Virus record (IMG/VR): IMGVR_UViG_3300013115_000612
Location: 44,151-108,150 of that record
Length of the DNA stretch: 64,000 bases
Origin: a virus
Direction: 5' to 3' (one strand)
The notes under the pieces are model-generated. The model was given only the letters and a program-made list of their open reading frames with translations. It did no database searches and had not been told where the DNA came from. The translations under genes were made by a program, and so were the position numbers. Positions 7,150 to 64,000 of the stretch are shown here, in pieces; within the stretch, counting starts at the first letter, position 1; the number at the start of each line of letters is the position of its first letter.

Positions 7150-7796
7150 TGAAGATAGTTTCTTTAATTTTAGCCCGCGGCGGCAGCAAGGGAATACCAA
7201 GAAAAAACTTAATCCCACTGAATGGAAAGCCTCTCTTATATTACAGTATTACAAATTCACTAAAAGCAGAGGTAAATGAAACCTGGGTCAGTACAGAAGA
7301 TAGTGAAATGAAAAAGACATCTTTAAGGTATGGAGCAAAAGTGCTTGATCGACCACTTGAGATATCTACGGATACCTCAAAATGTGAGGAAGCTTTGTTA
7401 CATTTTGCCGCTAATGTTGATTTTGATATTTTGGTTTTTATACAAAATACATCTCCGTTGGTTAGCCCCGAAGAAATAAACAATGGCATTAGGAAAGTTA
7501 AATCTGGCGAGTTTGATTCGGTATTCAGTGCTTACTTAGAGCACTGGGTGCCACGATGGTCCACGGATATCACCCCAATTGGGTGGAATACTAGCGCACG
7601 CCCGAGAAGACAGCAAAAGCCAGAAGTATACGTAGAGAATGGAGCCTTTTATATAACCACCCGGCAAAATCTTTTAGAGTCTGGGGTTCGATATAGCGGT
7701 AAGATAGGGATTGTTGAAATGCCGTTTTCCAGGAGTTTTCAGATAGACACAATAGACGAGGCAAGATTAATAGAAAAACTGATGAGGGCAGTATGA
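7149..7796 (+). CDS. neuA: CMP-sialic acid/nonulosonate cytidylyltransferase (NeuA-type)
   Basis: This 215-residue protein matches the acylneuraminate cytidylyltransferase family over its length. The CTP-binding signature LILARGGSKGIPRKNL fills residues 6-21, LNGKPLLYYSI follows, and IQNTSPLV stands for the family's QPTSPLR. It would join a nine-carbon sugar acid to CMP from CTP. It overlaps the GT29-like gene (TAATG) and the NeuB-like gene downstream (ATGA), which together form donor synthesis and transfer. Whether the sugar is N-acetylneuraminate, legionaminate or another nonulosonate is not decided by the sequence. Confidence 0.9.
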   Translation: MKIVSLILARGGSKGIPRKNLIPLNGKPLLYYSITNSLKAEVNETWVSTEDSEMKKTSLRYGAKVLDRPLEISTDTSKCEEALLHFAANVDFDILVFIQNTSPLVSPEEINNGIRKVKSGEFDSVFSAYLEHWVPRWSTDITPIGWNTSARPRRQQKPEVYVENGAFYITTRQNLLESGVRYSGKIGIVEMPFSRSFQIDTIDEARLIEKLMRAV

Positions 7797-8539
7797 TAAT
7801 AGCAGAGATTGGCCTGAACCATATGGGTGTTGAGGCGTACGCCGAATATTATGTAAATCAATTATTAGAAACCTCAGTAGATGCCATTACTTTTCAAATT
7901 AGAGAGCCAGATTTTTATTTGCGAAAAGAGAGAAAAGCTTTTGTTTTAGATATAGAGCTATACCATAAATTAAGTAATAAGATCCAGAGACAAGGTAAAA
8001 GCTTTGGCCTCGCGTTATCCGATATTAGTTTGCTTAGCGACTTAGATAGATCTGTAGATTTTTATAAAATTTTAAGCAAAGACTTTAATGATAAGTTTAT
8101 AAAAGAATTTACGGAAACAACCGAAAAACCAATTTTCATTTCAACGGGCCTTAGCTCGATAGAAAATATTCGTTCGCTTACAGAACAGATCACTCCGGAA
8201 AATAATGCAAGAATTTCTCTGATACACACTCAGTTGAGCCATGATATTTCTGACGTTAATTTAAACTCTATTCTTAAATTAAGAGATTTAACTGGCAATT
8301 CAATTTCTTTTGGCAATCATTGCGAAGACTCTCGTGTGTGCTTTATGTCCCTTCCTTATAATCCACATTCAATTTTTGTATATGTGAAGGGCAATGAAAA
8401 TTTAGAATATCCGGATAATGAACACGCTCTTAAACTTAATGATTTTGGAATATTTTGTGAAGATATGAAAAAACTCATGAATGCAATTGGAGACGGAGAT
8501 AAAAAAGAAATGACTAACCAAATAAGAGGACAAAAATGA
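7793..8539 (+). CDS. divergent NeuB-like aldolase-type synthase, possibly altered active site
   Basis: The 248-residue protein is a shortened relative of the sialic acid synthase barrel. It begins with IIAEIGLNHMG, the NeuB N-terminal strand, but the conserved KFQ is TFQ, the region that should read like DHxxS is EHALKLNDF, and the usual HC-S-YP is IHTQLSHDISD. It has no SAF (antifreeze-like) domain. These changes suggest a different substrate, a non-catalytic partner, or loss of activity; I cannot choose between them. It lies between neuA and an SDR gene and is coupled to both by 4-base overlaps. A better NeuB is encoded at 9217. Confidence 0.7.
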   Translation: MIIAEIGLNHMGVEAYAEYYVNQLLETSVDAITFQIREPDFYLRKERKAFVLDIELYHKLSNKIQRQGKSFGLALSDISLLSDLDRSVDFYKILSKDFNDKFIKEFTETTEKPIFISTGLSSIENIRSLTEQITPENNARISLIHTQLSHDISDVNLNSILKLRDLTGNSISFGNHCEDSRVCFMSLPYNPHSIFVYVKGNENLEYPDNEHALKLNDFGIFCEDMKKLMNAIGDGDKKEMTNQIRGQK

Positions 8540-9192
8540 ATAAAGACAAAAAAGCAATCGTTGTGGCGGGCTCAAGAGGCATCGGGAAAGCAATTGCCGA
8601 TGGAATTCGAGAACTTGGATACGATGTAGAAGCGCTATCCCGCACTGCTTTAGATACATCAAATTTAAAAAACGTTAAAAATTTCCTTGACAAAGGGCCA
8701 GAAACTGATATACTAGTATTAAATACCGGAGGTCCGCCCGCTAAAGATTTTTTTGATATAACGGAGGAAGACTTCAACAAATATTATAATCAGTTATTTT
8801 TAAGTTTCTGTCTTTTGCTACAGAAGGTAAAAATTAGGGATAATGGGTTTGTGTTTTTGGTATCTTCGTATAACATAAAAGAACCAAATCCAAAATTGAT
8901 ATTATCAAATTCTTATAGAATAGCTTTTACTAGTGTTCTAAAATCCGTTTCAAAATTATTTGCAGCGAGAGGGATTAATTGTATAAATATAGCCCCCGGA
9001 CCAATTAAAACAGATAGGCTTTATGCCTTGGTTGAAGACATCAACGTATTAGAAGAAAAGCTGCCACTTAAACGAGCGGCCGAACCTCACGAGATAGGGG
9101 ACTTTGTTAAATCCATTGTCGAAAACAATATTAAGTATTTAAATGGTGTAACAATTAATTTTGACGGTGGACACTCAAACTATATTTTATAG
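8536..9192 (+). CDS. SDR oxidoreductase with atypical active site (nonulosonate cluster)
   Basis: A classical-SDR fold protein of 218 residues. The glycine motif is VAGSRGIGKA at residues 10-19, LNTGGPPA replaces the usual NNAG, and IAPGPIKTDRL precedes the C-terminal NFDGGHS. The catalytic YxxxK reads SYRIAF, so the Lys is missing. This pattern (TGGPPA with a Tyr/Lys-poor active site) is known from a subgroup of SDR proteins resembling beta-ketoacyl reductases. In legionaminate clusters a PtmA-type SDR sits beside neuA and neuB genes, so a role in making the nonulosonate precursor is possible but not proved. Confidence 0.7.
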   Translation: MNKDKKAIVVAGSRGIGKAIADGIRELGYDVEALSRTALDTSNLKNVKNFLDKGPETDILVLNTGGPPAKDFFDITEEDFNKYYNQLFLSFCLLLQKVKIRDNGFVFLVSSYNIKEPNPKLILSNSYRIAFTSVLKSVSKLFAARGINCINIAPGPIKTDRLYALVEDINVLEEKLPLKRAAEPHEIGDFVKSIVENNIKYLNGVTINFDGGHSNYIL

Positions 9193-43300: not shown

Positions 43301-45516
43301 CCGAGATTGGGAACTTTTTCCTTAAAGATTCTCACTATACTAAATTAGAATCAGATATTATTGCTGATAAGCTTAAATTTGAGAGCGGGAGCGTGTATGC
43401 AGCGCGCATTAAACTTAAGAGATCCTATATCGGCGCACGTACATATGAAAATGAAATCGATTCCGGCGGGTTTACCTTTGCTGCTAATGGAACCCAAGGC
43501 CGATGGCGCCTCTTTGGCGGCGCCGGCCAAGAGATTGATGATCTACCATATCCTTCCGGTGCTTATTTTCCTGTGCCTCAAGATCCAACTCGACAAGACG
43601 GCTTTAGAGAGAGTTTCACCCTTTACAGTCGACCAACTGCCTTTGGCCCGCCAATAGCCGCTTTGCGCAAGACAGGATCAAATGCGCATGTTCCCAATGA
43701 TACCACGGTTGCGCAACTCGAAACCGCGATTAGCGAACAAACGGGTAATTACCCTCACGATTCTATTAATGGGTTTAACTGGGCGTTTACTCCCCCTTAC
43801 TATGATGGAGAATCATGGGCAGATGTTATTTTCCGACCTGATTCCACTAAAGAATATAGTGTCCAAGATATCTTAGCCGATTCTAAAGTACGCTACTGGC
43901 GCCATGACGCCGGAGGTCCCCATGGCGCGGATTCGTTAGGCTTCGTGGGAAACCTTTCCGGAGCTTATATTGGTTTGTCCCGCGGTATTTATGATGGAGA
44001 AAATATTAACCGTAATGCGATGCAAATATCTGCTAGTATTAATTTGTTTGGATTTGAACAAGTGCCATTTACCGAAAGAGATGCTTTCGGGAACGTGGTA
44101 ACTACCCGCGACACCACGACAGGAACTCGATGGGTTCTCCAGCCTAAATTTGAAACCCCGCACTTAAACTTTAATGATGCTTATAACCAAGCACAAATGC
44201 CTATTTATGGTTCTGCTTCTGTGCCAATTGGGATTTGGCACCAATTTGGCAAAATCCCCACAAATCCAGAGGTAGGAATTTTCTTAGAGATTGACGATAT
44301 ACCAGAACAATGGCAAAAATATCACTATGATATGTTTTATTATGACAGCATCTATAATGATAATAATGCGGCCTCTTTTGTGGCGGGCAAAACACCATTT
44401 AGATCATTGACTGATGTTTTTGGATTCAAGTCCAATAGTAAATCTAAACGTCTAGGAGAATTGGCCGATTCGCAAACACTTAGAGAGGCTATTGTGGCTA
44501 TCCCATATTATACGGAACAAACCCCTGGTGATTATAGTTTGACTACCGAGAAGACCGCCCGAACCCAGTATACTAAAAAATTCATTAGTATTCCCAAGGA
44601 AAGAATACAAGCCGCAGCCGAAGAGCAAGTGGGTTCTCTAGAAGGAGATTCTTTGGACACTGCGGGGTCTTCGATTAGAAAGCTTTTACAGAAGATGGAT
44701 CGCTACGTCCTTCCTCCGCAATTTGATTTTAAATCTAATAAAAACATTGATCCTATTGCTATGTATATTATAGAATTTGAATACAAACTAGACAAAGACG
44801 ATTTGTCCTATATTTGGCAAAATATGGCACCGAGAGATTATAAGAAGCTTTCATTCCAGAAATCATCTGTAGCCCACGAATTGATGGACACAGAATTATT
44901 ATCGGGGCATAATATTCTTGAGAGCGAAAATTTACGCTGGATGGTGTTTAAGGTTAAACAAAAATCGCAAGCCTTTTATGATGATTCTGTGGTCGCACAA
45001 ATCGGACAGACAACTAGAGACGCCTTTATTCAGCAACGCCGAAGAACCGAGCAAGGCTATAATCTAAATTACAACTGGCCTTATGACTATGTATCTTTTG
45101 TTGAGATGGTTAAAGTAAACGCCAAGGTGCTTTATGGCGGCCGCAGCACCGGTGTTCAAGGAGAACGAGTGCCTGCTGGTCAAAACGAACGTGTTCCTGT
45201 CTTAGAAACGCCAGCGCGCGAAGGGTCGCGAACTCTTCCGAGAGCGGCAGCAATAAATGAACAAGTAGCGGAAAGAGTACGAGCCCTCCCCCGGAGAGCA
45301 CGACGCCGCGCCGCCCGCGGAGCCAGAGGCCGCCAAGCGACTCTTCCGCTTGCCGATCAACAAACACGAGCAACTGCTCGTCGCCAGGGGCGCCGGCGTA
45401 ACAACACTAATACCACACGCCGCGCAACTAATCCGACTCGCACGCGAAGAACTCGCCGCGGCAGAGGCGGTGGCGGTAATCGCGGCGGAGGTGGCCGCGG
45501 CGGCGGAGGTTATTAA
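34333..45516 (+). CDS. giant tail protein with LamG-like domains and RGG-type C-tail (3727 residues)
   Basis: The largest gene of the window. LamG/concanavalin-like sandwiches are seen at about 203-386 (FWLKKPTFG, TWTHVALVMYN, DEFRFWKEKRSG), about 707-923 (TWNLSVRVKPK, RLYVGAQRTNLTG) and about 1555-1780 (GTYSCWISG, WNHVAVTWDA, DEVSIWQL). Such domains bind glycans. The middle is rich in Tyr, Asn and Gly. The last 125 residues change sharply: a basic tail with RRARRRAARGARGR and a final GRGGGGNRGGGGRGGGGY. GC content rises there. A role in host attachment or baseplate enclosure is inferred. There is no stop or frameshift in 11.2 kb. Confidence 0.78.
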   Translation: MSIKKLFGSVEDGRNYLSDTDQKEAFKDVESERNLEQLKEKQSNFVPQVDYSDPRFFARFGSAYYYYKGAMERITDYYPYDGSDAEINGFYNKLLDVEKYIFNNLYPRTNGYVELGEATTTSLSKLSGGYATPTTKEYITLKGGPNAIDSAGSLVKASNNPYSDKFQYSNVYDTSIYTTAGLPSDYGVGTRQSNLQCNFDTGVSIEFWLKKPTFGTCPETVFDLWTSGSQSGSVDYGRITVELTGASGVSPFLLTVQSGSAVSIEPGMTAAGIFQQSIGSGITAASLDTWTHVALVMYNTGSDFASKLYINGGLNDTYVTGSTTINQLKQKDTFARIGALLTAPSGAAATADSAVADYDGINKLSASMDEFRFWKEKRSGEDIGRYWFSQVRGGTNTDISNTTLGVYYKFNEGITETSSVDSNVLDYAGRITNGVWTGYGTNSRSTGSAMIESSASAQEYKDPIIYSSHSSVSNLKSELLATGSYHDAQNNSMFRNYAPSWIIEEAEQLGNNNLDVVSHIVGTYFDRVHLLSQQVPKLRGINYTSASSEPVPFAQHLPQSLGLYTPEIFIDANVMERFLNRNNDMLFENDLDETKNLIYLNLYNNLANIFKSKGTERSLRNVLRCFNIDEQIVKINTYAKNTTFPLSNNYEQVIEKVSYANFDKKENRTAVIYQRADSTNPNSRGYIPTGSKPGSEGGTEYANYEMQYGCTIEGQIMFPHWSVDYSDNQRDYTTVSLFGGITPYTSSADGLTGADTSANYPDYTNFQVQAIKTGPNSKDVYFKLTSSAPAYGVPEQFPTLTSSVFSNVYDNTTWNLSVRVKPKLDGPITTVSGASVTQYDVIFEGINIDLGTIENSFTVGGVVSAATGSASDFLTRPKRLYVGAQRTNLTGPVVHKSDVLVGSLRYWAKALNTGSLSQHAHDIDNYGISGSYQSVAAIDTANKSADVLNLNTLALNWAFNQLSSSNSTGVFVVPDISSGSTSLATDYGPMGTITGYQHNGYGYDFPNSSTDAIEKRLTNTFKFISPERATSADAIQILSEDDKVFGITETVPNYVYTVEKSMYRAVSEEMLDFFAGVVDFNNVIGAPVNRYRGRYKSLEKLREIFFRKVTKTSQVEKFVEYYKWFDDAIGHIMAQMVPASSDFVADVYNTVESHVLERNKYQTKYPSLETKQNHPEAQMEGVGGLGITYKNYSSPVPASPRNTNQNIQYWLKKAKRSEPEITSGNPTIDTQRENMRQIINTAPRASTKPGELMTSGIAGSGTKYFQDFYPQRNYQKLYKLKSYDADASIHGGVNFSKDQNIQYTYNSLYPFGPVSTEENRFIPLNVLVGLTSDLVSIQDFEDDRELRRKVKRVFKVQSARRWYQDEGYSDVKSSMAFPFNIMSSSLNSGYNKEVQTKVGANIEITNLHNDTYGQAMGTPMQGPFTEKYVGGHQSRHITYNSGATDTYLTRPEAWKLLLGQCADQGSGAIGMASPTYPYPDIGAPPSSAYGRIDFTSNPITDNSVTISDGDTSLTFTIPFMNTYATHHADQVRSYIVIGGDNSSSYGNPTLAEPQYFDIDAGTYSCWISGSIPMTGNGNLIIMGVNHATFNFSLIDDGSTPPGSSPASKLRLTQQWLNGASAGSTVNSYWTTDNKEVPLGQWNHVAVTWDATTTGSTEPVFFVNGVQVDSSRDGSAVPTAAGSTLRLALKARSGLPSGNPKVTCLIGGYNASNAISGAMDEVSIWQLSMSADQISELYATGSVTDLMQHSVYTSNNSNLRAWYRMGDDPNDAIDGTGVYDLGTNSIVDQTGRYNGTPGEDMTVDFATNVITSSATGDNIAWTRGGNTNATAVNLTTAINAQSFNIVASNPEGDAETITVSNTKYGVPTSTKKEARGSLGNVSLSRVGSRISVEGMQGGSDPQIINFNAPRATYYREELAKRPVNIRNIQMTTGSTIIGNYQNNYEVVSTVGAFANPRDFIENQPTLPSVITTKTNLNRGGANRFTGRTGQAVLNYLTLDRASGSHYDFELDYGITDNSGSYANKSVIITRFGAPGSRETMARGYQDFKSSEFSAYNATPYRNLSVLNAGQSNEIDAQTKVGGFGYIVNDLHNRPFGLNQHLTRHTARFGRDDMAVTGTTFATDGPGASYNQLPGFHKVHRNVKRRLETIGDGSQVTASVYDNWYVRHQIPRSDMQYTWITASLVSNNDHFGYLPASYEVSTSAGYTEPYNFVSASDFGIYQYTGFGGGLWRLGATKKMVQNYYTIGVDADFLPLDFAGMNTIIYDHFSASSNVLGLRSPESVYDYNLYDPPQTRFYFNTTVITNAGLINPGIPGWLWGAPIPKGAFDARAFNLLNLHRNGPYGWPIFKQIDYNNPLTRYERRNNQISILMADSGAYGTDFKTFDLSPVSMRAHPGKINFDNNSQDMTIVASHNNARIFFKEAELNDLVNINYSDIVTPFEQMLDVTTMGDRYSTNWIMYSQQLYPSERNEFESYITKRTGYNNKFWRSTQAQRIDQAQGDGVPPLRGGTLIPNSWGCPWLAPLPDQRAAAGMYGGNYIQLTQSSWPLDPVKDFLTRPQATRHPRLGAGSPASYREGGIKFRNSGSGELQNQYIMPAFRPSYLAYVVGVGDFGSPGALYSRKQTLGSYKSVVSPYGIVLPSTGALSSALDPREQIETFAGEAVWDCPTYAGINIQTGSTFTFQSQSSDPWFSDYETFQYDLKLAAKDYSIVPEFRISEHIADFKKYGLFGAHNSDIFEIPGTGINSAKSSSFYRDYSNSEFMKGFLNIKEDSGILPREIEIECEAAIRFNPYKGFYPVQRSLDLVSQWSSSYADGITVTVDGDGTTSMGPTIGSSSFGQKLLTDMGLYIRPMIAPLFAPGILYNSIKSGMAVDYPVVTDDTKILRWPFFSASIDTSGVADTIKGPEKRDTWALTINPNTLKVSANDTNGYDGKSFFDKRLPFETMIKPEGQIDGMQFIDMESNISCSALTTASFASPAVDDNYTLMASNYFAEIGNFFLKDSHYTKLESDIIADKLKFESGSVYAARIKLKRSYIGARTYENEIDSGGFTFAANGTQGRWRLFGGAGQEIDDLPYPSGAYFPVPQDPTRQDGFRESFTLYSRPTAFGPPIAALRKTGSNAHVPNDTTVAQLETAISEQTGNYPHDSINGFNWAFTPPYYDGESWADVIFRPDSTKEYSVQDILADSKVRYWRHDAGGPHGADSLGFVGNLSGAYIGLSRGIYDGENINRNAMQISASINLFGFEQVPFTERDAFGNVVTTRDTTTGTRWVLQPKFETPHLNFNDAYNQAQMPIYGSASVPIGIWHQFGKIPTNPEVGIFLEIDDIPEQWQKYHYDMFYYDSIYNDNNAASFVAGKTPFRSLTDVFGFKSNSKSKRLGELADSQTLREAIVAIPYYTEQTPGDYSLTTEKTARTQYTKKFISIPKERIQAAAEEQVGSLEGDSLDTAGSSIRKLLQKMDRYVLPPQFDFKSNKNIDPIAMYIIEFEYKLDKDDLSYIWQNMAPRDYKKLSFQKSSVAHELMDTELLSGHNILESENLRWMVFKVKQKSQAFYDDSVVAQIGQTTRDAFIQQRRRTEQGYNLNYNWPYDYVSFVEMVKVNAKVLYGGRSTGVQGERVPAGQNERVPVLETPAREGSRTLPRAAAINEQVAERVRALPRRARRRAARGARGRQATLPLADQQTRATARRQGRRRNNTNTTRRATNPTRTRRTRRGRGGGGNRGGGGRGGGGY

Positions 45517-55025: not shown

Positions 55026-56099
55026 ATGTCATTCTTAGATAATGCCGGCACTATCATACTCGACGCAATCCTTACAGATGTGGGTCGCCAACGATTGGCT
55101 CAAGGAAACTTCCAAGTCACCAAGTTCTCATTAGGTGATGATGAGATTGATTATAAGCTATACATAGCGCCTATTGCTAATAATGATCCTCCGGCTTGGA
55201 CCTCCTTTAGCGATCCGGCTGGATATCTTATTCTTTCGCAATCTTGTTTTGAAGCGCTTAATAACACAAGCGCCACTATAAACTACGGACTTACTTCCTT
55301 TGAAAGAAATGATCTTCTTTATTTGCCTGAATTAAAAATTAATTATTCTGGCTCTGCTAGTACAAAGGGTAACACAGGACAGCCTCATGAACACCCGGGT
55401 ATAGCGCGCCCAGTTAGTGGATCGGTTTTTTATTTGGCAGTTAATGGTGAAACTAGCAAAAAATTGAAATCTGCGCTTGGAAGTACTAATTATATATTAG
55501 AGAGCTTAGGATATAATAAAACAAAAATCGTAATTGAATCCGGAATCACCACTGACCAACTGGCCGGCAATTTAGAAAATTCGCGAGCATTCATTGTACA
55601 GCCGGCTGTGTTAGACACTTATTACTATGTTCATGTAGACAGTCGTTTTTTTGTCAACATTATAGGCTCCGGCGCCGATGCAGTTTTTAAGAACAGAACC
55701 AATGGTGAATTAGAGATGAATTTTAAAACTTTTAAGCCACATACGAGAATATCGATAACTAGCCCGCTCGATAAATTTGATTCTTATATGGTAGCAGCGG
55801 GACCAAATAGAGTTTATAGTACCAACAATACGGGACCATTGACGGATCGTTCTATTTCTGCTATTGCTGGACCTCGCGGAACTGTTATGGCTTTGGGGCT
55901 CACTATCGTAAATGAGATAGGCGGTAGTTCCGGAACCACACGAAATCAAAAATATACTATTTTTGGAAAAAATGATCAAATATTATTTGGTGGAAGTGAT
56001 AAATACGATTATATAGATACGACTATTTATGTTAAAGGCGCAACAACCGGCGCCCAAGTTCAAATTCCTTTGAGAATAATACGCTATGCTGGCACATAA
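55026..56099 (+). CDS. paralogous tail protein A with FLDNxGxIILDAxLTD module
   Basis: 357 residues. The N-terminus FLDNAGTIILDAILTDVGRQRLAQGNF and the later SLGDDEIDY are shared with the next gene. The GxxxNRVYSTNNTGP and ISAIAGPRGT stretches are also shared with it (ISAISGPRGT). The two proteins are therefore paralogs from a tandem duplication. The mid part is beta-rich with HVDSRFFVNIIG, which has its match as SVDSRFINGVWG. No catalytic motif. Probably a fibre-tip or baseplate part; the shared module may bind a common partner. Confidence 0.65.
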   Translation: MSFLDNAGTIILDAILTDVGRQRLAQGNFQVTKFSLGDDEIDYKLYIAPIANNDPPAWTSFSDPAGYLILSQSCFEALNNTSATINYGLTSFERNDLLYLPELKINYSGSASTKGNTGQPHEHPGIARPVSGSVFYLAVNGETSKKLKSALGSTNYILESLGYNKTKIVIESGITTDQLAGNLENSRAFIVQPAVLDTYYYVHVDSRFFVNIIGSGADAVFKNRTNGELEMNFKTFKPHTRISITSPLDKFDSYMVAAGPNRVYSTNNTGPLTDRSISAIAGPRGTVMALGLTIVNEIGGSSGTTRNQKYTIFGKNDQILFGGSDKYDYIDTTIYVKGATTGAQVQIPLRIIRYAGT

Positions 56100-56163
56100 C
56101 AAACTAACTATTTATGGTAAAACAAATAAAATACACACTATTTATACAAGAGAGGAAAAATAA
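56100..56163 (+). promoter_or_regulatory. 65-bp intergenic region with repeated ACTATTTAT, possible regulatory
   Basis: This is one of the longer gaps in the structural block. It holds ACTATTTAT at 56107-56115 and again at 56137-56145, 30 bases apart, plus an AT-rich run, and GAGG before the ATG at 56164. It could contain a promoter or a messenger processing site, but there is no good match to a known consensus on the + strand. The inverse of the second copy reads TATAAATA on the minus strand, where no gene follows. Confidence 0.25.
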
Positions 56164-57171
56164 ATGGCTTTTTTAGACAATTCTGGCGACATAATCCTTG
56201 ACGCAGTATTAACCGACACCGGCCGCCGCAGGCTATCCGAAGGGAACTTTCAAATTCGAAAGTTTGCGCTTGGAGACGACGAGATACAATACAACCTTTT
56301 TGACAAAAACAACCCGTCAGGCTCAGCATACTACGATTTAGAGATCTTACAGACACCCGTAGAAGTCGCCCACACTAAAGCTTCTGAAATTCAATATGGA
56401 CTTCTCACTTTAACTAACAACAATTTGTTATACATGCCCTCTTTGGCCTTAAACGAGCTAACAACCCAGTCCGTATTAAAATACCAAAAAGTCCTATATG
56501 TTGCAGTAAATGTTGAAACAAGAAACAAAATAGTAAACTCCTCTAATGTCGATGAAAAATATGTATTAATGTCCAACATCCGGAATCCTACTCGCGCTGT
56601 AGTGGTTGAATCCGGAATCAACACAACAGACCTTAAAGGCACCCCTGCTAACCGCACGGCCTACTTGCAGAGTACGAACCTCATAGACTCAAGTTTTACG
56701 GTATCGGTAGATTCTCGATTTATTAATGGAGTGTGGGGGACCGGGCCAGCTTCCACTTTTTCTAATAATACCGATGGCGCCCCTAATGTGGCGTTTGGAC
56801 CTCTTGTGAACGCGCGCGGCCCAGGCACCTCTAGAGGACTCGTCAACTTTCAAACTTATGCCGCTAATACAGTAGATGATTTGGTGTCTTACTATGCTTC
56901 TCAAGGAGCGAACTTGGACACCCTTATTTCGGCTATCTCGGGTCCACGAGGAACCGCAGCCAAATTAAACTTTAATGTACCTGATGATTTGCGAGAATTA
57001 GCAGGGGGAACTAGAGCTACCGAGTGGACTAAATACGGACAAGTGGCGCAAAATGTATTTAGTACTGGTCAGCTATATGATATTATTGACACTTTCACCC
57101 TAATAGCCGGCTCAAATACAAATGCTTCAATCCAAGTACCCTTAAGACTTATCCGGTACGTAAGTGGCTAA
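56164..57171 (+). CDS. paralogous tail protein B with FLDNxGxIILDAxLTD module
   Basis: 335 residues, paralogous to the upstream gene. It opens with FLDNSGDIILDAVLTDTGRRRLSEG, has FALGDDEIQYNLF, and shares SVDSRFINGVWG and ISAISGPRGT. Both proteins end with IPLRxIRY-like strands (QVPLRLIRYVSG here). GAGG lies 9 bases upstream of the ATG. The copy lacks a His/Pro-rich loop found in A and has its own loop (GPLVNARGPGTS). Retained twice, the pair may form hetero-oligomers or serve two positions in the baseplate. Confidence 0.65.
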   Translation: MAFLDNSGDIILDAVLTDTGRRRLSEGNFQIRKFALGDDEIQYNLFDKNNPSGSAYYDLEILQTPVEVAHTKASEIQYGLLTLTNNNLLYMPSLALNELTTQSVLKYQKVLYVAVNVETRNKIVNSSNVDEKYVLMSNIRNPTRAVVVESGINTTDLKGTPANRTAYLQSTNLIDSSFTVSVDSRFINGVWGTGPASTFSNNTDGAPNVAFGPLVNARGPGTSRGLVNFQTYAANTVDDLVSYYASQGANLDTLISAISGPRGTAAKLNFNVPDDLRELAGGTRATEWTKYGQVAQNVFSTGQLYDIIDTFTLIAGSNTNASIQVPLRLIRYVSG

Positions 57172-57187
57172 ATCACGGAGATATTAA

Positions 57188-58270
57188 ATGCCCCAAAATT
57201 ATCAATTATTAAACCCCAACACAGATCGCACGACTACCAAGACGTTGTTGCATGAGGCGATCCCCGTCACAGGCGCTATTTTAAGTGCCACCTACGGAAC
57301 TTATCCAAACGAGGGTAATATCAAGAACTATACTCATGGAATGTTTCAATCGGTATATGATTATCCTTATTTAAGTTCTTCAGCAAATCACATCTTTGAT
57401 ATTACAATGGGATACGACGAAAGCTCTGTCTTATCGCAGTCTTCACACACGGCGGTGATGATGCAAAAGAAGAAAATTAACATTTATAATCAGATGTCGC
57501 AGGTATTGTTGGGATATACCGGCTCAAATAACGAAGTTGAAATTTTTGAAAGTGATTTAGACTATGGTGACAATGATCGCCAGATGAGAGAATGCTTTTT
57601 CGTTAATTTCTCTCGGCTTCTTAGTAAAGATCAAATTAAACCGGGCACCTTCTCTATCACCCTTGGTTCTGGCTCATGGGCTGCTCCATATAGTGTCGGC
57701 GGCGGTGGGCGCCTCACCTTGACTGATAGATCGGCTTCCCTGACACAAGGAACCAAGAATACTCCCGGTGGAACTTATGGAGTTCTTTATTCGGGTAGTA
57801 ATGCTGATTCGCGCTGCGGATTAGTGTTTTATGAAGCAGCAATTGTAGTCCTCTCGGCTTCGTGTTGGATGTCCGGCGCTACAGAGACCTCGCGCGCAGA
57901 CTTTTACAATCTGGACTACACCGAGCGTTCTACTACAGGCTCCATGATCTCTTCATCGATTTCCGGAAACTGTGATGCCCTCCGACATAGAATTTATGAC
58001 CTCTCTTATAACAACACAACCGAGATCAATTCTACCATTTATTTCTGTAGGGCTCCTCATAATAGTTTCAACTATAGTTCGAACCCGACCTACACGACAA
58101 GCGGCAAGATTAATGTGAAAAACGTCGCCTCTGATCCGCCGGTGTCTTATATTACTACTGTTGGGCTTTATAATGCACAGAATGAACTCCTCGCTGTGGC
58201 CAAGTTATCGGAACCGCTCAAGAAGGATCCTTCAAACGAGATTACGCTGCGAGTAAGATTGGACTACTAA
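57188..58270 (+). CDS. tail protein with VGLYNxxNELLAVAKLS C-terminal motif
   Basis: 360 residues. Ser/Thr/Tyr-rich, with strand-turn pattern and a loop of Gly (SVGGGGRLTLTDRSASLT). It ends with YITTVGLYNAQNELLAVAKLSEPLKKD and RVRLDY, a form that the next gene repeats. SFNYSSNPTYTT is likewise shared. No Cys clusters beyond a few single residues and no catalytic motif. The gene starts 16 bases behind tail protein B. It appears to be a structural protein of baseplate or fibre. Confidence 0.6.
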   Translation: MPQNYQLLNPNTDRTTTKTLLHEAIPVTGAILSATYGTYPNEGNIKNYTHGMFQSVYDYPYLSSSANHIFDITMGYDESSVLSQSSHTAVMMQKKKINIYNQMSQVLLGYTGSNNEVEIFESDLDYGDNDRQMRECFFVNFSRLLSKDQIKPGTFSITLGSGSWAAPYSVGGGGRLTLTDRSASLTQGTKNTPGGTYGVLYSGSNADSRCGLVFYEAAIVVLSASCWMSGATETSRADFYNLDYTERSTTGSMISSSISGNCDALRHRIYDLSYNNTTEINSTIYFCRAPHNSFNYSSNPTYTTSGKINVKNVASDPPVSYITTVGLYNAQNELLAVAKLSEPLKKDPSNEITLRVRLDY

Positions 58271-58271
58271 A

Positions 58272-59699
58272 ATGTCCTTCAAGAAGTTTGGACAAAATGA
58301 TATCCTTATAAATACAATGATGGCAGAGCCTCATTGTGAATTCTTCATTTATGATGGGGATATCTTTTATAACAATACACCGAGCAAAGCCGGCACTTCT
58401 ACTGCAGGCGGCGGCGGTTCTGCTGTGTCTGAAGTTCGTATGGTATCCCCCGGCAGTATTAGCTTGTATGAGTACAATATTGATCGACCAGATACAAGCG
58501 GGGATGATAAGATTATCGGTGAGGCCGGCCCTCACTCTAGAGGAGGCGGCTCTTATACCCAGGCTGTCGCCGATCTTGGACCAGAACCCCAGACATTTGT
58601 TCAATATACTGGACGCATCTATCCTTGGATTTCCAAAGACAGCGCCGGCGCAAGCTGGAAAACAGTTAATGCTACCGGTTATGCTACCGAATATATGTAT
58701 GGTGATGTTCTAACCGGAACCTATCCTCTCTCCGCCTCAATAGTGCGCAAATATATAGTCGGCGGTTCTACAGGTCCCACTTTTGGCGCGGTGGGGGAGA
58801 CGTCTGGCTCCGGCGCCGACGAGGTATCCATCGAGGGCAAGTTAACAGCATTAGGAGATGGTCCTTCTGGTTCTCTCGATAGGCACTTCTATAGTTTAAA
58901 AGGTCGTTTAAATTTTTATGGCATTCGAAGTGCGCACTATAAAGTTTCTGCTTCTCTAGGATCGGACTCGTGGAACAAAAATGAACAGACCTTAAATTTA
59001 ATCGCCATTCCATCAATAGCCTTTGGCTCTCAAATCAAGCCCGGAACGGTCTCTTTAAAATGGTATTATGACGGCGGCCTGATTGGAGAACTTCAAGACC
59101 GTCGACAAAACGGAGAATTAATTCAAGTTTCCGCTTCCACAGGGTATACAGCTAATAATAATAAAGTTGCAGGAGTTATTATGTACGATGAGGGATACAT
59201 TGTCTTAACTGGCTCGTGGGCTTTAAATGCGGCTGCTATCCCATTACAGACGGCCGTGAATTCCTCTCCCACATGGCTTTATTTTGGTGTCGGTGCGAAT
59301 GATGGACTTAATCAAAGTAACACTGGGACTAATTTTGCAAAAGCTTCTTTTAGCTTATCTTTCAAGGGGCAGACGAAAACACAAGTAATGACACTGTTTA
59401 CGCATGCTAAGCGTGGAGAAGCCAATTTCTCTAATAACCCCACATATTTAAAGTATGGACAAGACAAACTACAATATACCTCTTCACAAGTTTATGAAGA
59501 AAATCCTGATCAATTCCTTGCCAACACCGTCAGTTCGAGTTATAATGATTATGAGGCTCCGTTTAAACGGAGTGTGTATATTTCCAAAGTGGCAGTCTAT
59601 GATGAGAATAAGAATATGATCGGCGTTGCAACGTTAGCAAATCCAGTTCTCAAAGAAGAAGATCGAGACTACTCCTTTAAATTAAAATTGGATATTTAA
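58272..59699 (+). CDS. tail protein, larger paralog of the preceding one
   Basis: 475 residues. The last 120 residues line up with those of the preceding protein (ANFSNNPTYLKYG, YISKVAVYDENKNMIGVATLANPVL, KLKLDI). The N-terminal half differs, with a poly-Gly stretch (AGGGGSAVSEV), GAGPHSRGGGS and LNFYGIRSAHYKVSASLGSD. It is the last gene of the structural block. Its stop overlaps the RuvC-like gene. Shared C-terminus and different body suggest a common anchor carrying different heads. Confidence 0.6.
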   Translation: MSFKKFGQNDILINTMMAEPHCEFFIYDGDIFYNNTPSKAGTSTAGGGGSAVSEVRMVSPGSISLYEYNIDRPDTSGDDKIIGEAGPHSRGGGSYTQAVADLGPEPQTFVQYTGRIYPWISKDSAGASWKTVNATGYATEYMYGDVLTGTYPLSASIVRKYIVGGSTGPTFGAVGETSGSGADEVSIEGKLTALGDGPSGSLDRHFYSLKGRLNFYGIRSAHYKVSASLGSDSWNKNEQTLNLIAIPSIAFGSQIKPGTVSLKWYYDGGLIGELQDRRQNGELIQVSASTGYTANNNKVAGVIMYDEGYIVLTGSWALNAAAIPLQTAVNSSPTWLYFGVGANDGLNQSNTGTNFAKASFSLSFKGQTKTQVMTLFTHAKRGEANFSNNPTYLKYGQDKLQYTSSQVYEENPDQFLANTVSSSYNDYEAPFKRSVYISKVAVYDENKNMIGVATLANPVLKEEDRDYSFKLKLDI

Positions 59700-60274
59700 T
59701 GATACTTGGTGTGGATATTTCCACCAGCATCACAGGTTTTGCGATTGTTACCGATAACGTGCTGGTATATTATGACTCTATTGATTTGCGAAAATACAAA
59801 GGCTTTTTCGCTAAGACAATCGCTATAAAAGAAAAGATACTGGACATTTTCGAAATGTACCAGCTTAATAACGATGACAAGATGACTGGAGATTCTGAGT
59901 TTCCTATTCAGCACATCTATATTGAGCAATCTCTCCATATGTTTATGGGAGGCCGCTCATCAGCTAAAACACTTTCAACACTCACGCGCTTTAATGGCGT
60001 CGTAGCGTGGCTTCTCTTCGAACTATTTGAAATCGAACCACAATTTATCGGCGCTTCGTCTGCTCGCAAGCAAGTCGGCATTAGAGTTCCGAGAGGTGAG
60101 AAAGCAAAACAAGTTGTTTTGAAATATTTACTTGACAACGAACCCACTTTTAAGATACAATATACAAGTAAGGGCAATCCCAAACCTGAATCTTATGATC
60201 GGGCGGATGCAATTATAATCGCGAGAGCGGGAGATATAATTGAGCGAGAAAAAGAAACACAAGATTCTGTGTGA
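59699..60274 (+). CDS. RuvC-like Holliday-junction resolvase
   Basis: 191 residues. The retroviral-integrase-fold acidic residues are visible: Asp6 in MILGVDIST, Glu76 in IYIEQSLH, and Asp167 and Asp170 in SYDRADAIIIA. GGRSSAKTLSTLTRFNG fits the substrate-binding helix. RuvC-type enzymes cut branched DNA; in a large phage this helps recombination and DNA clearance before packaging. In T4 the equivalent job is done by the unrelated endonuclease VII. The start is at the stop of the tail gene (TAATG), and the last 35 bases overlap the primase gene. Confidence 0.85.
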   Translation: MILGVDISTSITGFAIVTDNVLVYYDSIDLRKYKGFFAKTIAIKEKILDIFEMYQLNNDDKMTGDSEFPIQHIYIEQSLHMFMGGRSSAKTLSTLTRFNGVVAWLLFELFEIEPQFIGASSARKQVGIRVPRGEKAKQVVLKYLLDNEPTFKIQYTSKGNPKPESYDRADAIIIARAGDIIEREKETQDSV

Positions 60275-61175
60275 TGTATTAGGATATTCACATACAAATG
60301 GTTCCGAAACACTTTTCAAATGCCCTGCGTGCGATCACCACAAGCTTAAACTCTCTGTTAACATCCGCAAGAATGTTTTTAAGTGTTGGGTATGTGATTA
60401 TCGTGGTCGTAATATTCGCCGGCTGGTTCGTCGTTTTGGAACGTTTGTTCAACTACAGCGATGGGAAGAACTCACGGGTCGCCACGATCTCGATAGATTT
60501 GCTGAGCTATTTGATGATAGCGTTCGTGTGGACCCTCAGCCCACTTTGGATCTTCCAGAAGAATTTGTAAGTCTCGCCAGCAATGTGCCGGCAACTGGTG
60601 TATACGCTTATAAATACTTGTACTCACGCGGTATAACAAAGGCCGAGATTCTTAAGTGGAAGATAGGTTATTGTTTCAGCGGCGAGTATCGCAACCGCAT
60701 TATCATCCCGTCCTTTAACGATGACGGCAATGTCAGTTATTTCATCGCGAGATCCTATAACGGAGATTCATACAAGTATAAGAATCCCAGAGCATCTAAA
60801 GACATTGTGTTCAATGAGCTATATATTGATTGGAACGATGACTTGACAATCGTGGAAGGGGTGTTTGATGCCATTACTGCCGGAAACAGCGTACCTATTT
60901 TGGGGTCCACTCTGCGATCTGACTCCGATCTCATCCGCAAAATCGTGTACAACGATACACCAGTCTTCGTTGCACTCGACCCCGATGCGCGAGAAAAAGA
61001 GAACAGGATTATTGAGACGCTTCTTAAATACGATGTCGAACTTTACAAGATTGACGTGAGTGGTTACGAGGACGTGGGCTCCATGCCGAAAGAGGTTTTC
61101 CGAGAGCGAAAACAAAAAGCAGAATTCATAGATAGAGACGACTATTTACTCATGAATTTACTCTCGGCAGTATAA
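60240..61175 (+). CDS. DNA primase (zinc ribbon plus TOPRIM), T4 gp61-like
   Basis: 311 residues from a TTG start at 60240, which has GGGAG about 5 bases upstream; there is no earlier Met. The zinc ribbon uses C28, C31, C49 and C52 (FKCPACDHHK and FKCWVC). The TOPRIM core follows with LTIVEGVFDA (Glu206) and VFVALDPDA (Asp247, Asp249). These build the site that makes RNA primers for lagging-strand synthesis. A short repeat of its 3' end appears at 62554, encoding the same last residues with one D-to-E change. The protein ends FIDRDDYLLMNLLSAV. Confidence 0.86.
   Translation: MSEKKKHKILCDVLGYSHTNGSETLFKCPACDHHKLKLSVNIRKNVFKCWVCDYRGRNIRRLVRRFGTFVQLQRWEELTGRHDLDRFAELFDDSVRVDPQPTLDLPEEFVSLASNVPATGVYAYKYLYSRGITKAEILKWKIGYCFSGEYRNRIIIPSFNDDGNVSYFIARSYNGDSYKYKNPRASKDIVFNELYIDWNDDLTIVEGVFDAITAGNSVPILGSTLRSDSDLIRKIVYNDTPVFVALDPDAREKENRIIETLLKYDVELYKIDVSGYEDVGSMPKEVFRERKQKAEFIDRDDYLLMNLLSAV
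61125..61175 (+). repeat. direct repeat, copy A: primase 3' end
   Basis: The last 51 bases of the primase gene match 62554-62604 at 44 of 51 positions. All but one difference, the first base of a Leu codon (CTC/TTG), sit at third codon positions, and the encoded 16 residues differ by one conservative change (D to E). The repeats flank a cassette of about 1.4 kb. Confidence 0.85.
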
Positions 61176-61180
61176 ACCGC

Positions 61181-61209
61181 TTGACATTTACAGATAGATC
61201 GCTTATAAT
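61181..61209 (+). promoter_or_regulatory. sigma-70-type promoter, TTGACA-N17-TATAAT
   Basis: TTGACA at 61181-61186 and TATAAT at 61204-61209 with exactly 17 bases between, a perfect match to the bacterial housekeeping consensus. It lies in the 40-base gap after the primase. Start of transcription would fall at about 61216, the A of the next ATG. It should be read by unmodified host polymerase, which is typical for early phage genes. Confidence 0.8.
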
Positions 61210-61215
61210 AAGAAT

Positions 61216-61485
61216 ATGAAAGTAACAGCACTAAGGTGTAACAATTGCAACACCCTAATTTATTCTCGTACTCGTCACGATATGAGAGGCTGCCGGTGTT
61301 GGAAGAACGATTACGATAACATCGGAATTGCAATTGACGGCGGGTTCGACTATTGCAAGGTTCACGCCAGTCCAAAATCAGACTATGATTTTATTGCCGA
61401 GTATGATCTTGGAGAGGTTGACAGGAAAACGCTTTATCAAGATTGGAACACTCGAACCGATAATTATGGGATGATTACAGAATGA
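61216..61485 (+). CDS. small Cys-containing hypothetical protein (cassette gene 1)
   Basis: 89 residues, starting MKVTALRCNNCNTLIYSRTRHD, with CNNC and CRCW plus a later Cys that together look like a zinc site. The middle, IGIAIDGGFDYCKVHA, is a recognisable conserved element of small phage proteins of unknown function. The ATG lies at the predicted transcription start, so the messenger would be leaderless or nearly so. Overlaps the next gene by 4 bases. The first 11 bases are the same as at 62615 and 63296. Confidence 0.65.
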   Translation: MKVTALRCNNCNTLIYSRTRHDMRGCRCWKNDYDNIGIAIDGGFDYCKVHASPKSDYDFIAEYDLGEVDRKTLYQDWNTRTDNYGMITE

Positions 61486-62060
61486 ACGAAGAAAACGACT
61501 TTAGACTTGTGAGAGCTTTCCCGCTCCTTTATGCAGATAGGGGCGGCTCTAAGCAATCAACGCTCATGTGTTGGGGCTTCTCGTGCGGCGATGGCTGGTT
61601 TGATCTTATCTGGGATCTCTCAGAGAAGCTTGAGCCGATCATCAAGAAGTTTGTTGATGAAAATCCAAACCTTGAATGTTCGAATTGCGGCTGCAAGAAA
61701 GACAGACACTATGCTTGCAAGACCCGCAATCCCGGCAGGTGCCTATCGGTTCACGTCGATCCGGATTCAGATGAGGAGCCCCCTGGCAACTATTATGCTT
61801 GCTTCTGTGATAGTTATGTGTCAAGTCATCCAAGGGCTGTTCAGGTGAAAGAGAAGTTCGGATCGCTTAGGTTCTATATGACATCAGAAAACGACGAGAT
61901 CCGCAGCCTAATCGGCGAAGCCGAAGCAAAATCGTGTGAAACCTGCGAGGAATGCGGAGATCCCGGCAAAGAAAGAGACACAAGTTGGATCCGAACGCTC
62001 TGCGACGGATGCTATGAGAATTGGGAGCAGATCCGAGCAGCGAGATGGAGCAAAGAATGA
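61482..62060 (+). CDS. conserved phage zinc-ribbon-like protein (cassette gene 2)
   Basis: 192 residues. Cysteine-rich in several places: LECSNCGCKKDRHYACKT, YYACFCDSY, SCETCEECGDPG and LCDGCYENW. CGDGWFDLIWDLSEKLE and VQVKEKFGSLRFYM are parts of a family widely seen as a hypothetical protein in phages. Several metals may be bound. The gene is coupled to both neighbours by 4-base overlaps. A role in host takeover is possible, given the promoter in front; nothing shows it directly. Confidence 0.65.
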   Translation: MNEENDFRLVRAFPLLYADRGGSKQSTLMCWGFSCGDGWFDLIWDLSEKLEPIIKKFVDENPNLECSNCGCKKDRHYACKTRNPGRCLSVHVDPDSDEEPPGNYYACFCDSYVSSHPRAVQVKEKFGSLRFYMTSENDEIRSLIGEAEAKSCETCEECGDPGKERDTSWIRTLCDGCYENWEQIRAARWSKE

Positions 62061-62302
62061 AACCAACACTTGAGTCTGGTGATATCATAATCCGTCGCGC
62101 AAGTAATGGTTGGATTGTATTTGTAGAATCAGAGCACGAGCCAGATCACTTTATCACTCTCCTTTATGAAATCCCCGACACTGAATTCGGGGAACAAGAG
62201 TGCTTTATGAACCTTTTAGGAGCAGAGTTCCCAGAGCAATTTCAGTCAAAACATCGTGGCGGTATTCAAATGGAGTTGCGAACCAAGGGACGAGAGCATT
62301 AA
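62057..62302 (+). CDS. small hypothetical protein (cassette gene 3)
   Basis: I start at ATG 62057, overlapping the upstream stop; a longer form from 62021 would lie inside gene 2. The 81 residues read as a compact acidic alpha/beta protein (DIIIRRASNGWIVFVESEHE, LLYEIPDTEFGEQ) with no known motif. The GGGIQMELR-type end is polar. Probably expressed from the promoter at 61181 along with its neighbours. Function unknown. Confidence 0.55.
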   Translation: MKPTLESGDIIIRRASNGWIVFVESEHEPDHFITLLYEIPDTEFGEQECFMNLLGAEFPEQFQSKHRGGIQMELRTKGREH

Positions 62303-62329
62303 GAAAAATATTGAAGTGATTGAAGAATA

Positions 62330-62551
62330 ATGAGCGAGAACACCAAAAAAGAAGATTGGCAGAGACTAGAAATCACAGATGTGATCGACAATCCTGACGG
62401 AACTTCAACATTAGTTTTTGAACTCGAAGACGAGTTCAGAGAGTGGTTCAAGAAATCATTCGGATTAAAAAGGTGGAGCGACAAAAGGTTCGAGAAGGTG
62501 TTTCTTGAAGCAATTAGAGGCTATATAGAGAGGGAGACCGGAAAAGATTAA
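62330..62551 (+). CDS. small hypothetical protein (cassette gene 4)
   Basis: 73 residues after a 27-base gap, with a weak ribosome site (GAAGAA). The protein has a strand-turn-strand start (RLEITDVIDNPDGTSTLVFELED) and an amphipathic helical end (DKRFEKVFLEAIRGYIERE), recalling small phage proteins of unknown role. It ends 2 bases before the displaced primase 3' end. No catalytic motif. Confidence 0.55.
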   Translation: MSENTKKEDWQRLEITDVIDNPDGTSTLVFELEDEFREWFKKSFGLKRWSDKRFEKVFLEAIRGYIERETGKD

Positions 62552-62553
62552 TC

Positions 62554-62604
62554 TTTATCGATAGAGAAGACTATTTATTGATGAATTTACTCTCGGCAGT
62601 GTAG
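62554..62604 (+). pseudogene. remnant of a second, diverged primase 3' end
   Basis: The frame from TTT 62554 to TAG 62604 encodes FIDREDYLLMNLLSAV then stop, the same 16 residues as the primase C-terminus except D to E. There is no start codon before it and the rest of a primase gene is absent. Nearly all base differences from copy A are at third positions, so this copy diverged while still part of a working gene. Its TAG is merged with the ribosome site TAGGAGAG of the next gene. The match stops sharply on both sides. Confidence 0.85.
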
Positions 62605-63310
62605 GAGAGCCCCGATGAAAGTAACCAAATCAAAACTAAAGCAGATTATTAATGAAGAACTGGGACAAGAACTCCAAGAACTTTATATCCCTTTTATTGG
62701 CGGGAAACTTCCCGAGAAAGAATATGCAATCCGTAGGAAGCAGTTGGACGCCATTGGCGATATGGCAAATGACCTAAGCGCGGAAGAGGAAGAACAATTC
62801 TTAAGGTACGCGAGCCGGTTGGTAGCACCCAAGGAGGAAGGGGAAGGCTTTGTCCTGCTGAGCGACAGGATAGAAGCTGGTCTTCTAGGACAATTGTTTC
62901 AACAACTGAGGCGCCTTCTGTATGACCGTCACCCTAAACATAAAGCACAGAGTCTTATGAACCGTTTTGATCAAAACGCAGATCGGTTGTCCAAAGAGTT
63001 GGGCGGACTAGCCCAAGAAATAGCCGATCAGAAAGCTGATGCTGCGGCAAGAGAAAAGGCCGCCCGGGAAGAAAGGTATGAGAGGGAACAACGAGAAGAA
63101 GAAGAAGAAAAAGCAAGAGCGCGAAATAGGAGAGACGCAGAAGAAGCCCGTTCGGCGCAGGAGTACCTGAGTATGTCCGATGCAGAACGTACTCGACTGC
63201 GCAAGCGGTCAGGATCGTCGTCCCACCGCGTTAACCCCGGCTTTGCAGGCTCAGGAAACATGGGCTATGGAGAATCACTCGATAGGAGAATCCCAATGAA
63301 AGTAACCAAA
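62602..63310 (+). repeat. 28-base leader/start repeat (62602-62629 and 63283-63310)
   Basis: TAGGAGA, then two variable bases, CCC, then ATGAAAGTAACCAAA occurs at both places with 25 of 28 bases identical. Each copy contains a ribosome site followed by ATG and the MKVTK start. The second copy is inside the 62615 gene and is read in frame. Confidence 0.8.
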
Positions 63311-63673
63311 GCACAACTTCAAGAGATCATCCTTGAAGAGCTTACAATCGCTTTAGACGAGCTTGGCGCTGGCAAAGGCGCCGGCATGAGCCTGCGCGCT
63401 GCCCAACTCGGTGGAACCGGACACGGCAAGCGCGATGAAGACGAAGAATACGTCGATCCCGAAGTCGATCCTTATGAGAAAGCGCTGGAAGCTCCGTTGG
63501 CCGAAGAAGAGGATGACGAGTGGATTCAAGACGCAGAGAAAGATATTAAAAAGCGCGGCACCGAGGGTGTCTGCACTGGGGATAAATTTGGTGGTCCCAC
63601 ATGCAAGCCTGGAACGAAACGATACAACTTAGCAAAGACGTTCCGGAAGATGGCGAAAGACCGCAAAAAATAA
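62615..63673 (+). CDS. charged coiled-coil protein with repeated MKVTK..IIxEEL leader, fused or dual-start
   Basis: 352 residues with an N-terminal amphipathic helix MKVTKSKLKQIINEELGQEL. Residues about 140-190 are an Arg/Glu/Ala coiled-coil. At residue 228 (ATG 63296) the leader recurs as MKVTKAQLQEIILEELTIAL. It is preceded by its own AGGAGA ribosome site, so a second protein of 125 residues may be made from the same frame. The C-terminal part is acidic and ends with a lysine-rich helix with CTGDKFGGPTCKPG. In T4, internal head proteins carry a short amphipathic N-terminal targeting peptide; a similar role here is speculation. Confidence 0.65.
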   Translation: MKVTKSKLKQIINEELGQELQELYIPFIGGKLPEKEYAIRRKQLDAIGDMANDLSAEEEEQFLRYASRLVAPKEEGEGFVLLSDRIEAGLLGQLFQQLRRLLYDRHPKHKAQSLMNRFDQNADRLSKELGGLAQEIADQKADAAAREKAAREERYEREQREEEEEKARARNRRDAEEARSAQEYLSMSDAERTRLRKRSGSSSHRVNPGFAGSGNMGYGESLDRRIPMKVTKAQLQEIILEELTIALDELGAGKGAGMSLRAAQLGGTGHGKRDEDEEYVDPEVDPYEKALEAPLAEEEDDEWIQDAEKDIKKRGTEGVCTGDKFGGPTCKPGTKRYNLAKTFRKMAKDRKK

Positions 63674-63677
63674 AAGC

Positions 63678-63706
63678 TTGACTCTTGCTTGACAATGAGT
63701 TATACT
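63678..63706 (+). promoter_or_regulatory. sigma-70-type promoter, TTGACT-N17-TATACT
   Basis: TTGACT at 63678-63683 and TATACT at 63701-63706 with a 17-base spacer lie in the gap before the nuclease gene. One mismatch per hexamer. Transcription would start near 63713, giving a leader of about 20 bases that includes GGAGGG. Confidence 0.65.
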
Positions 63707-63731
63707 ATAAGAGTATCTATGCGGAGGGTAC

Positions 63732-64000
63732 GTGAAGTTTGCACATATAAGTGATACTCATATCAAAAATCTGAAGTATCATTATGAATATCGAGTCATT
63801 TTTGAGCAGTTGTATGAAACGCTGCGGGAACAAAAAGTCGATTACATTATACACTGTGGGGATATAGCCCACACCAAGACCCAGATCTCACCAGAGTTTG
63901 TTGAGATGTGTTCTGATTTTTTTCGCAGTCTCGCTGAGATTGCACCAACCTATATCATTCTAGGAAACCATGACGGCAACCTAAAGAACAGCAGTCGTCA
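63732..64000 (+). CDS. gp47: SbcD/Mre11-type nuclease, T4 gp47-like, 3' truncated by window
   Basis: The reading frame runs from GTG 63732 to the window edge (89 codons) with no stop. It has the metallophosphoesterase signatures of the family: FAHISDTHIKNL at the start, YIIHCGDIAHTKT, and YIILGNHDGNL. These Asp, His and Asn residues hold two metal ions. In T4, gp47 works with gp46 as a nuclease complex in recombination and host DNA breakdown. GGAGGG lies only 3 bases before the GTG, which is close. Confidence 0.88.
   Translation, partial: MKFAHISDTHIKNLKYHYEYRVIFEQLYETLREQKVDYIIHCGDIAHTKTQISPEFVEMCSDFFRSLAEIAPTYIILGNHDGNLKNSSR

Follow-up and report, generated by a model that had tools for sequence, protein, structure and literature searches.

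We analysed a window of 64,000 nucleotides (positions 44,151 to 108,150) of IMGVR_UViG_3300013115_000612, a 108150-base virus record in IMG/VR. Near its right-hand edge, the 3' end of a phage primase gene occurs twice, once on the primase itself (copy A) and once without the primase body (copy B), behind a cassette of four small genes (o1-o4) with a predicted promoter of its own. The locus was compared with relatives from a primase scan, of which the best 80 of 108 loci were retained (L001-L080); 77 of the 80 hold the primase stop, and 68 also hold an SbcD-like gene on the right. L085, L094, L096 and L101 all come from a single record of 17193 bp (IMGVR_UViG_3300007504_000120). The primase, the cassette and the repeat are laid out as follows.

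60240..61175, plus strand: DnaG-type phage primase gene with a TTG start, ending in copy A (PHROG 47 DNA primase, expectation value (E) 1.1e-43; relatives in 80 loci)
61125..61175, plus strand: copy A, the final 51 bases of the primase gene, in use (self-comparison)
61181..61209, plus strand: predicted consensus sigma-70 promoter of the cassette, TTGACA-17-TATAAT, a 12/12 sequence match
61216..61485, plus strand: o1, 89 amino acids, DUF7695 (Pfam PF24749, E 2.5e-10)
61482..62060, plus strand: o2, 192 amino acids, Cys-rich accessory protein with relatives in phage records and bacterial bins
62057..62302, plus strand: o3, 81 amino acids, no family, overlapping the o2 stop; present in the window phage (two records) and the L096 contig, its start matching L097
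62330..62551, plus strand: o4, 73 amino acids, no family; 100% in the L096 contig, 85% in L097
62543..62556, no strand: perfect 14-bp palindrome AAAGATTAATCTTT running across the o4 stop and into copy B (palindrome search)
62554..62604, plus strand: copy B, a primase 3' end of 51 bases that lacks the primase body and is not in frame with o4
62569..62600, plus strand: the 32 bases of copy B that hold the switch between the L096 cassette and the cassette-free locus L002

An earlier sequence-only reading had described copies A and B as agreeing at 44 of 51 bases, and direct comparison and BLAST confirmed this; the likeness falls away on either side. When the 1.2 kb upstream was compared by BLAST with the region downstream, the repeat was returned at E 1.7e-13, and a separate repeat search also detected it. 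The differences were said to lie nearly all at third codon positions, as indeed do six of the seven, the remaining one being a synonymous first-position change in a leucine codon, so that at the protein level a single change, D to E, separates the copies. The promoter and the four open reading frames expected between them are likewise present, and o1-o4 overlap or almost touch one another. The palindrome falls exactly on the o4/copy-B joint; the 64-kb window holds eight perfect palindromes of at least 14 bp. An assembly artefact is unlikely, since L051 and L001 carry the same stretch and the diverged L096 contig has both cassette and copy B. L051 and L001 represent the same phage as the window (100% and 99.96% identity over 9761 bp, BLAST, IMG/VR), and no close DNA similarity to 56000-64000 was found in any annotated phage record.

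To the right of copy B, the window continues with three further features.

62615..63673, plus strand: leader gene (MKVTKSKLKQIINEEL...), which contains another leader copy in the same frame (ATG at 63296); like the leader gene that comes first after the primase in L002, L005, L006 and L046
63678..63706, plus strand: promoter-like site, 10/12, ahead of the SbcD-like gene and near the right edge of the variable region
63732..64000, plus strand: start of a putative SbcD-like metallophosphoesterase gene, named from its sequence; the right neighbour in relatives, where tblastn detects it at 68 of the 77 loci whose primase end is complete

Relatives indicate which of the two primase ends is the older resident. 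In L002, L005, L006 and L046, a leader gene (MKVTK or MKITK) begins within about 12 bases of the primase stop and there is no cassette, which is the arrangement that the sequence-only reading had suggested looking for; the leader gene after the primase is of the same type across relatives, with a different body. Because these cassette-free relatives run the primase end into a like leader gene, copy B and the 62615 gene would together represent the old junction. Copy B matches the primase end of L005 at 50 of 51 bases, and the L005 primase/leader-gene junction aligns to window positions 62554-62658 in one piece (105 bp, 94%). Furthermore, at all seven sites that distinguish the copies, the state of copy B occurs in at least one intact primase of the eight relatives compared, while copy A has two states (sites 3 and 27) that are private among the same eight. 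Given these shared states and the contiguity in L005, the best reading of copy B is that it represents a functional primase end still in its original position, and that copy A with the cassette is the newcomer; the earlier suggestion that copy B had diverged within a live primase is thus supported. The same reading would have been undermined by both copies being present in all relatives, and a second copy is in fact not general among them. In comparison with L002, the window primase shows 17 changes over 476 bases but eight in the last 60 (8/60 versus 17/476, Fisher p=0.0036, for a boundary picked after looking), a modest sign that a left joint may lie near 61120.

The evidence that copy B has been used in recombination comes from L096. 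In protein scans with o1-o4, the L096 contig was the one further contig that holds all four genes. Its BLAST homology to the window begins at 61204, at the -10 box, and extends through o4 and copy B; the L096 promoter also reads TTGACA-17-TATAAT by eye, with an unrelated spacer. Over 1405 aligned columns, the window and L096 show 101 differences, distributed so that there are identical runs of 382 bases (62219-62600) and of 355 bases (from 61743); a run as long as 382 was seen in none of 20000 permutations. Counted from the start of copy B, L096 differs from the cassette-free L002 at offsets 6, 15, 352, 353 and 358 of 363, with an identical stretch of 336 bases after the switch, and the window differs from L096 at offsets 48, 51 and beyond. 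The switch therefore lies in offsets 16-47, that is, window positions 62569-62600. Since this change of partner falls inside the primase remnant, it is direct evidence that at least one crossover has used copy B as its site. Between 61743 and 62600, the cassette itself is a mosaic with respect to L096, with identical blocks and more diverged patches, a pattern pointing to repeated recent exchange. In four further contigs reached through the left-hand gene of L096, the stretches examined gave no match to the window query.

The same locus is a variable site in the relatives. The distance from the primase stop to the SbcD-like gene ranges from -5 to 5005 bp with a median of 1182 (68 loci), and the 156 open reading frames chosen from these gaps form 79 families, of which 52 have a single member; the gap, reading-frame and leader counts given here include redundant records of one phage. 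L003 and L004, whose primases are 92 and 89% identical, have a gap of 71 bp and no cargo. Among L001-L080, o1, o2 and o4 were found solely in the two records of the window's phage.

Our preferred explanation, which we hold to be likely, is that the cassette is a recently exchanged, moron-like operon, and that copy B is the resident primase end, which now works as a homology arm because it is real primase sequence. The promoter and o1-o4 would have been inserted between the primase and the following leader gene of close relatives, with the incoming DNA supplying the primase 3' end on the left (copy A). On the right, an illegitimate joint would have put o4 51 bases before the resident primase stop, leaving the resident end as copy B. 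The cassette would then have spread by homologous recombination, with a left crossover presumably in or before the primase and a right crossover in the 51-base end, where one has been seen once, so that exchange with a related phage would leave the downstream genes undisturbed. The agent could be the phage's own RecA-type recombinase; a RecA-family protein is encoded in the phage record that holds L051 (E 5.3e-36). Recombination of A with B would be predicted to delete the cassette again. Morons have been described as DNA lying between genes that adjoin in relatives, with a promoter of its own (PMC3029335, PMC1524935). The cassette is like them in its position between a primase and a leader-gene type that are contiguous in relatives and in its predicted 12/12 promoter, but no plus-strand terminator was found, its G+C content is ordinary and it has four genes instead of one.

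Several points weigh against this explanation. The o4/copy-B joint shows no visible homology to primase, so the original joint must have been illegitimate; the left crossover is not located; and the foreign origin of copy A has the single post hoc p value given above behind it. In the sole other carrier of all four genes, the contig reaches only about 620 bp to the left of the shared sequence, leaving its primase and left junction unseen, and either of the two phages, the window's or that of L096, may be the recombinant. In addition, no other cargo of the hot spot between the primase and the SbcD-like gene has a clear remnant, which argues that gain and loss at this site go mostly by other routes. 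The sequence-only reading, in which a foreign primase end and its cargo recombined into the locus, stands as regards the addition of the cassette and, through L096, recombination at the primase end, whereas the word foreign, as applied to copy A, has only the post hoc excess in its favour.

The rarity of the remnant also bears on a different explanation, which we find unlikely, namely that copy B is the passive scar of one illegitimate insertion, that the switch between L096 and L002 was a chance general exchange, and that the remnant has no role in movement. It would fit the association of the remnant with one cassette only. When the 77 loci whose primase end is complete were each searched for internal repeats of it, a clear second copy appeared in the two window-phage records alone; elsewhere the search gave short matches at most. 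The one of these that touches a primase end, 15 exact bases in L063 (E 0.008), proved to be a ribosome-binding-site-plus-ATG string and no remnant. Ungapped scanning of 76 of the 77 loci for their own primase end (L067 was too short) left most close to their control; the highest scores outside the window phage, 31/51 for L009 and 30/51 for L073 and L075, compare with 24-25 for the controls. When the end was letter-shuffled 100 times for L009 and for L073, no shuffle scored as high in the locus's own region, yet these are the best of 76 loci, and the matches show little protein likeness to the primase end; a very decayed remnant in the two is possible.

We also scanned IMG/VR with two degenerate primase-end patterns, which cover ends of the [ML][ND]LL.. 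type and exact matches. Of 70 pattern matches checked, 67 are preceded in frame by a primase body; the three orphan ends are copy B itself, in the two window-phage records and in the L096 contig; the match in L003, an intact primase end, is outside the 70. Cargo that varies at a fixed site is thus general, and the duplicated end is, as far as seen, tied to this cassette. The proposed cargo-swap mechanism at a fixed site is accordingly not supported as a general one: the insertion site does vary (68 loci), but the remnant accompanies one cassette only. Exchange blocks inside the cassette, such as the 355 identical bases, likewise show that exchange was not confined to copy B, as a passive scar would allow. 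Against such a scar stands the fact that the sole mappable right-end switch lies inside the remnant, the first stretch there that is common to cassette-bearing and cassette-free phages.

No Pfam or NCBIfam family matched o2, o3 or o4 at E <= 0.1, and among PHROGs o2 had matches at E 0.02 at best and o3 and o4 none. In tblastn searches of 50,697 phage records, o2 matched 14, all below 60% identity and the top-ranked at 33%, and o1, o3 and o4 matched none. A structure model of o2 (mean predicted local distance difference test score 77; 48 residues below 50) had no PDB match at E <= 0.001, and PADLOC gave matches of about E 0.03 at best for o2, which we do not consider meaningful. The cassette has 44.6% G+C against a window mean of 41.2 (standard deviation 3.1) and is not deviant, and no plus-strand terminator-like site was present in 59600-64000.

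Genes like o2 were found in seven other virus records, some of them fragmentary, none of which holds a relative of the window primase at E <= 0.001, and also in seven contigs of bacterial genome bins. Given their presence in these virus records and bins, genes of the cassette kind occur across phage groups. In L097, o2-, o4- and o3-like genes lie beside a transfer-messenger RNA (tmRNA) gene and an HNH-type endonuclease, which matched phrog_3322 endonuclease (E 8.9e-20) and phrog_3118 HNH (E 2.2e-7) and had no Pfam match. This neighbourhood is what would favour a homing-type transfer, in which an HNH endonuclease once adjoining the cassette cut the target and repair copied the cassette together with a flanking piece of primase. 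We think this very unlikely, because family searches gave no endonuclease match in the window cassette, none is apparent among the open reading frames in the roughly 620 bp left of the cassette in L096 (one of them family-searched), and the L097 record has no relative of the window primase at E <= 0.001. Phage tmRNA genes adjoin o2-like genes at L097:1074-2054, L086:2245-2615 and L089:2241-2612, followed in L097 by the HNH-type endonuclease.

Integrated islands that use gene ends are likewise flanked by gene-end repeats, and the direct repeats of a gene 3' end around the cassette could suggest site-specific integration, with the primase 3' end as attachment site, A and B as hybrid sites and an integrase acting in trans. 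This is more improbable still, since family searches found no integrase or recombinase match among o1-o4, the copies differ at seven of 51 sites, and the other cargo of the 68 gaps makes no clear use of the repeat. Least probable of all is that copy B is retained because it acts as leader or regulator for the gene downstream, for instance through translational coupling: its stop codon does overlap the ribosome-binding-site-like stretch of the next gene, but the conserved regulatory element that the sequence-only reading had named as the alternative does not fit a primase end whose synonymous conservation is ordinary (0.565 versus 0.504 in the body, with 71 of 279 blocks equally high), and copy B sits in the 382-base block identical between the window and L096, so that no selection acting on copy B itself is apparent.

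The closest known counterpart to an exchanged cassette with a left-over gene end is found in the mycobacteriophages Island3 and Brujita. In Island3, about 60 bp of the 3' end of gene 67 (18 C-terminal residues) are described as recurring in a related form at the end of the inserted gene 68; Brujita is described as lacking that gene and having one recombinant copy, from which the authors inferred recombination between sequences of about 50 bp (PMC3029335). The likeness is threefold: a diverged 3' end of the upstream gene is repeated after the insert (here 44/51), close relatives have a single copy and no insert (here L002, L005, L006 and L046), and a recombinant switch lies inside the repeat, here in the cassette-bearing L096 and there in the empty form. 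The two differ in that the window has a four-gene operon with its own promoter and a remnant out of frame behind the last gene, and in that it lies in a wide hot spot, where a second carrier is joined through the remnant to another downstream module. By this analogy the window cassette is the same kind of event, with Island3/Brujita as a near-exact precedent.

A further comparison is with the PeSL elements, described as mobile regulatory cassettes of T4-type phages that undergo modular shuffling at early promoters (PMC4503421). Like them, the shared cassette sequence has its left edge at the -10 box, whereas its right-hand homology is the end of a coding gene, and no terminator stem-loop was found on the plus strand. 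Among the literature matches listed, no title or abstract opening reported a primase-end case, which is no proof of absence. Phage mosaic joints seldom retain traces of their making. For these uncultured phages, both the joint and an exchange that later passed through it are legible to within 32 bases, in support of the view that homologous recombination between short sequences at gene ends is one way in which cargo passes between phages.

The genes that otherwise occupy the hot spot frequently begin with the leader M-K-[VI]-T-K-x-x-L-K-x-I-I-x-E-E, as at window:62615-62662, and o1-o4 do not carry it. With a pattern that fixes E or Q one residue after the site, 60 leaders were counted in the 87.7 kb of gap versus 35 in 664.7 kb outside (L001-L080), a 13-fold higher density. 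With a looser pattern, in which P1 is free and I, L or V is allowed at P3, 52 distinct gap leaders had E at P1 in 50 cases and Q in 2, and I at P3 in 49, V in 2 and L in 1; outside the gap, E stood at P1 in 32 of 35. A Peptidase_S77 protease is encoded in the records of L051 (E 3.1e-31) and L002 (E 2.7e-31), with none in the 17-kb record of L096 or in three unrelated records tried.

In T4, gp21 is described as cutting after L/I-X-E (PMC9026906), and internal-protein genes as carrying a capsid targeting sequence (PMC3012670, PMC9026906). The hot spot, as distinct from the cassette, resembles that internal-protein locus in its diverse proteins, its short shared leader with an I-x-E site and a gp21-type protease in the phage. 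The letters of the T4 leader differ from those of the hot-spot leader, and the P1' residue of T4 is usually small, whereas in the hot-spot leaders it is E; the four cassette genes have no such leader. On the strength of the I-x-E site and the protease, the leader is likely a capsid-targeting sequence and the hot spot an analogue of the T4-style internal-protein locus. A search of the literature text for five leader strings found none of them. A wider proposal, that the cassette carries its own integration arm and can be swapped into and out of relatives with the primase/leader-gene arrangement, at a locus that otherwise stores diverse capsid-targeted (injected) proteins, is in our view tentative and rather doubtful.

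The leader genes show some further features of their own. Within the open reading frame at 62615-63673, each of the two in-frame leaders (62615 and 63296) comes after a ribosome-binding-site-like stretch, and L096:2520-3530 has the same design; such a frame may encode either a fusion protein or two nested genes. Further leader genes form a second cluster about 3.5-5.7 kb right of the primase end, in loci such as L008, L014, L023 and L056; it holds 33 of the 35 distinct outside matches, two of them weak. Finally, to the right of the L006 primase, 7363-9015 encodes a zeta-toxin-like protein of 550 amino acids (Pfam E 1.4e-5) with a leader of another type, MKLLMENWNKFLSEEE, which resembles MKLLLEHWNRYLQEEE at G010:122477.

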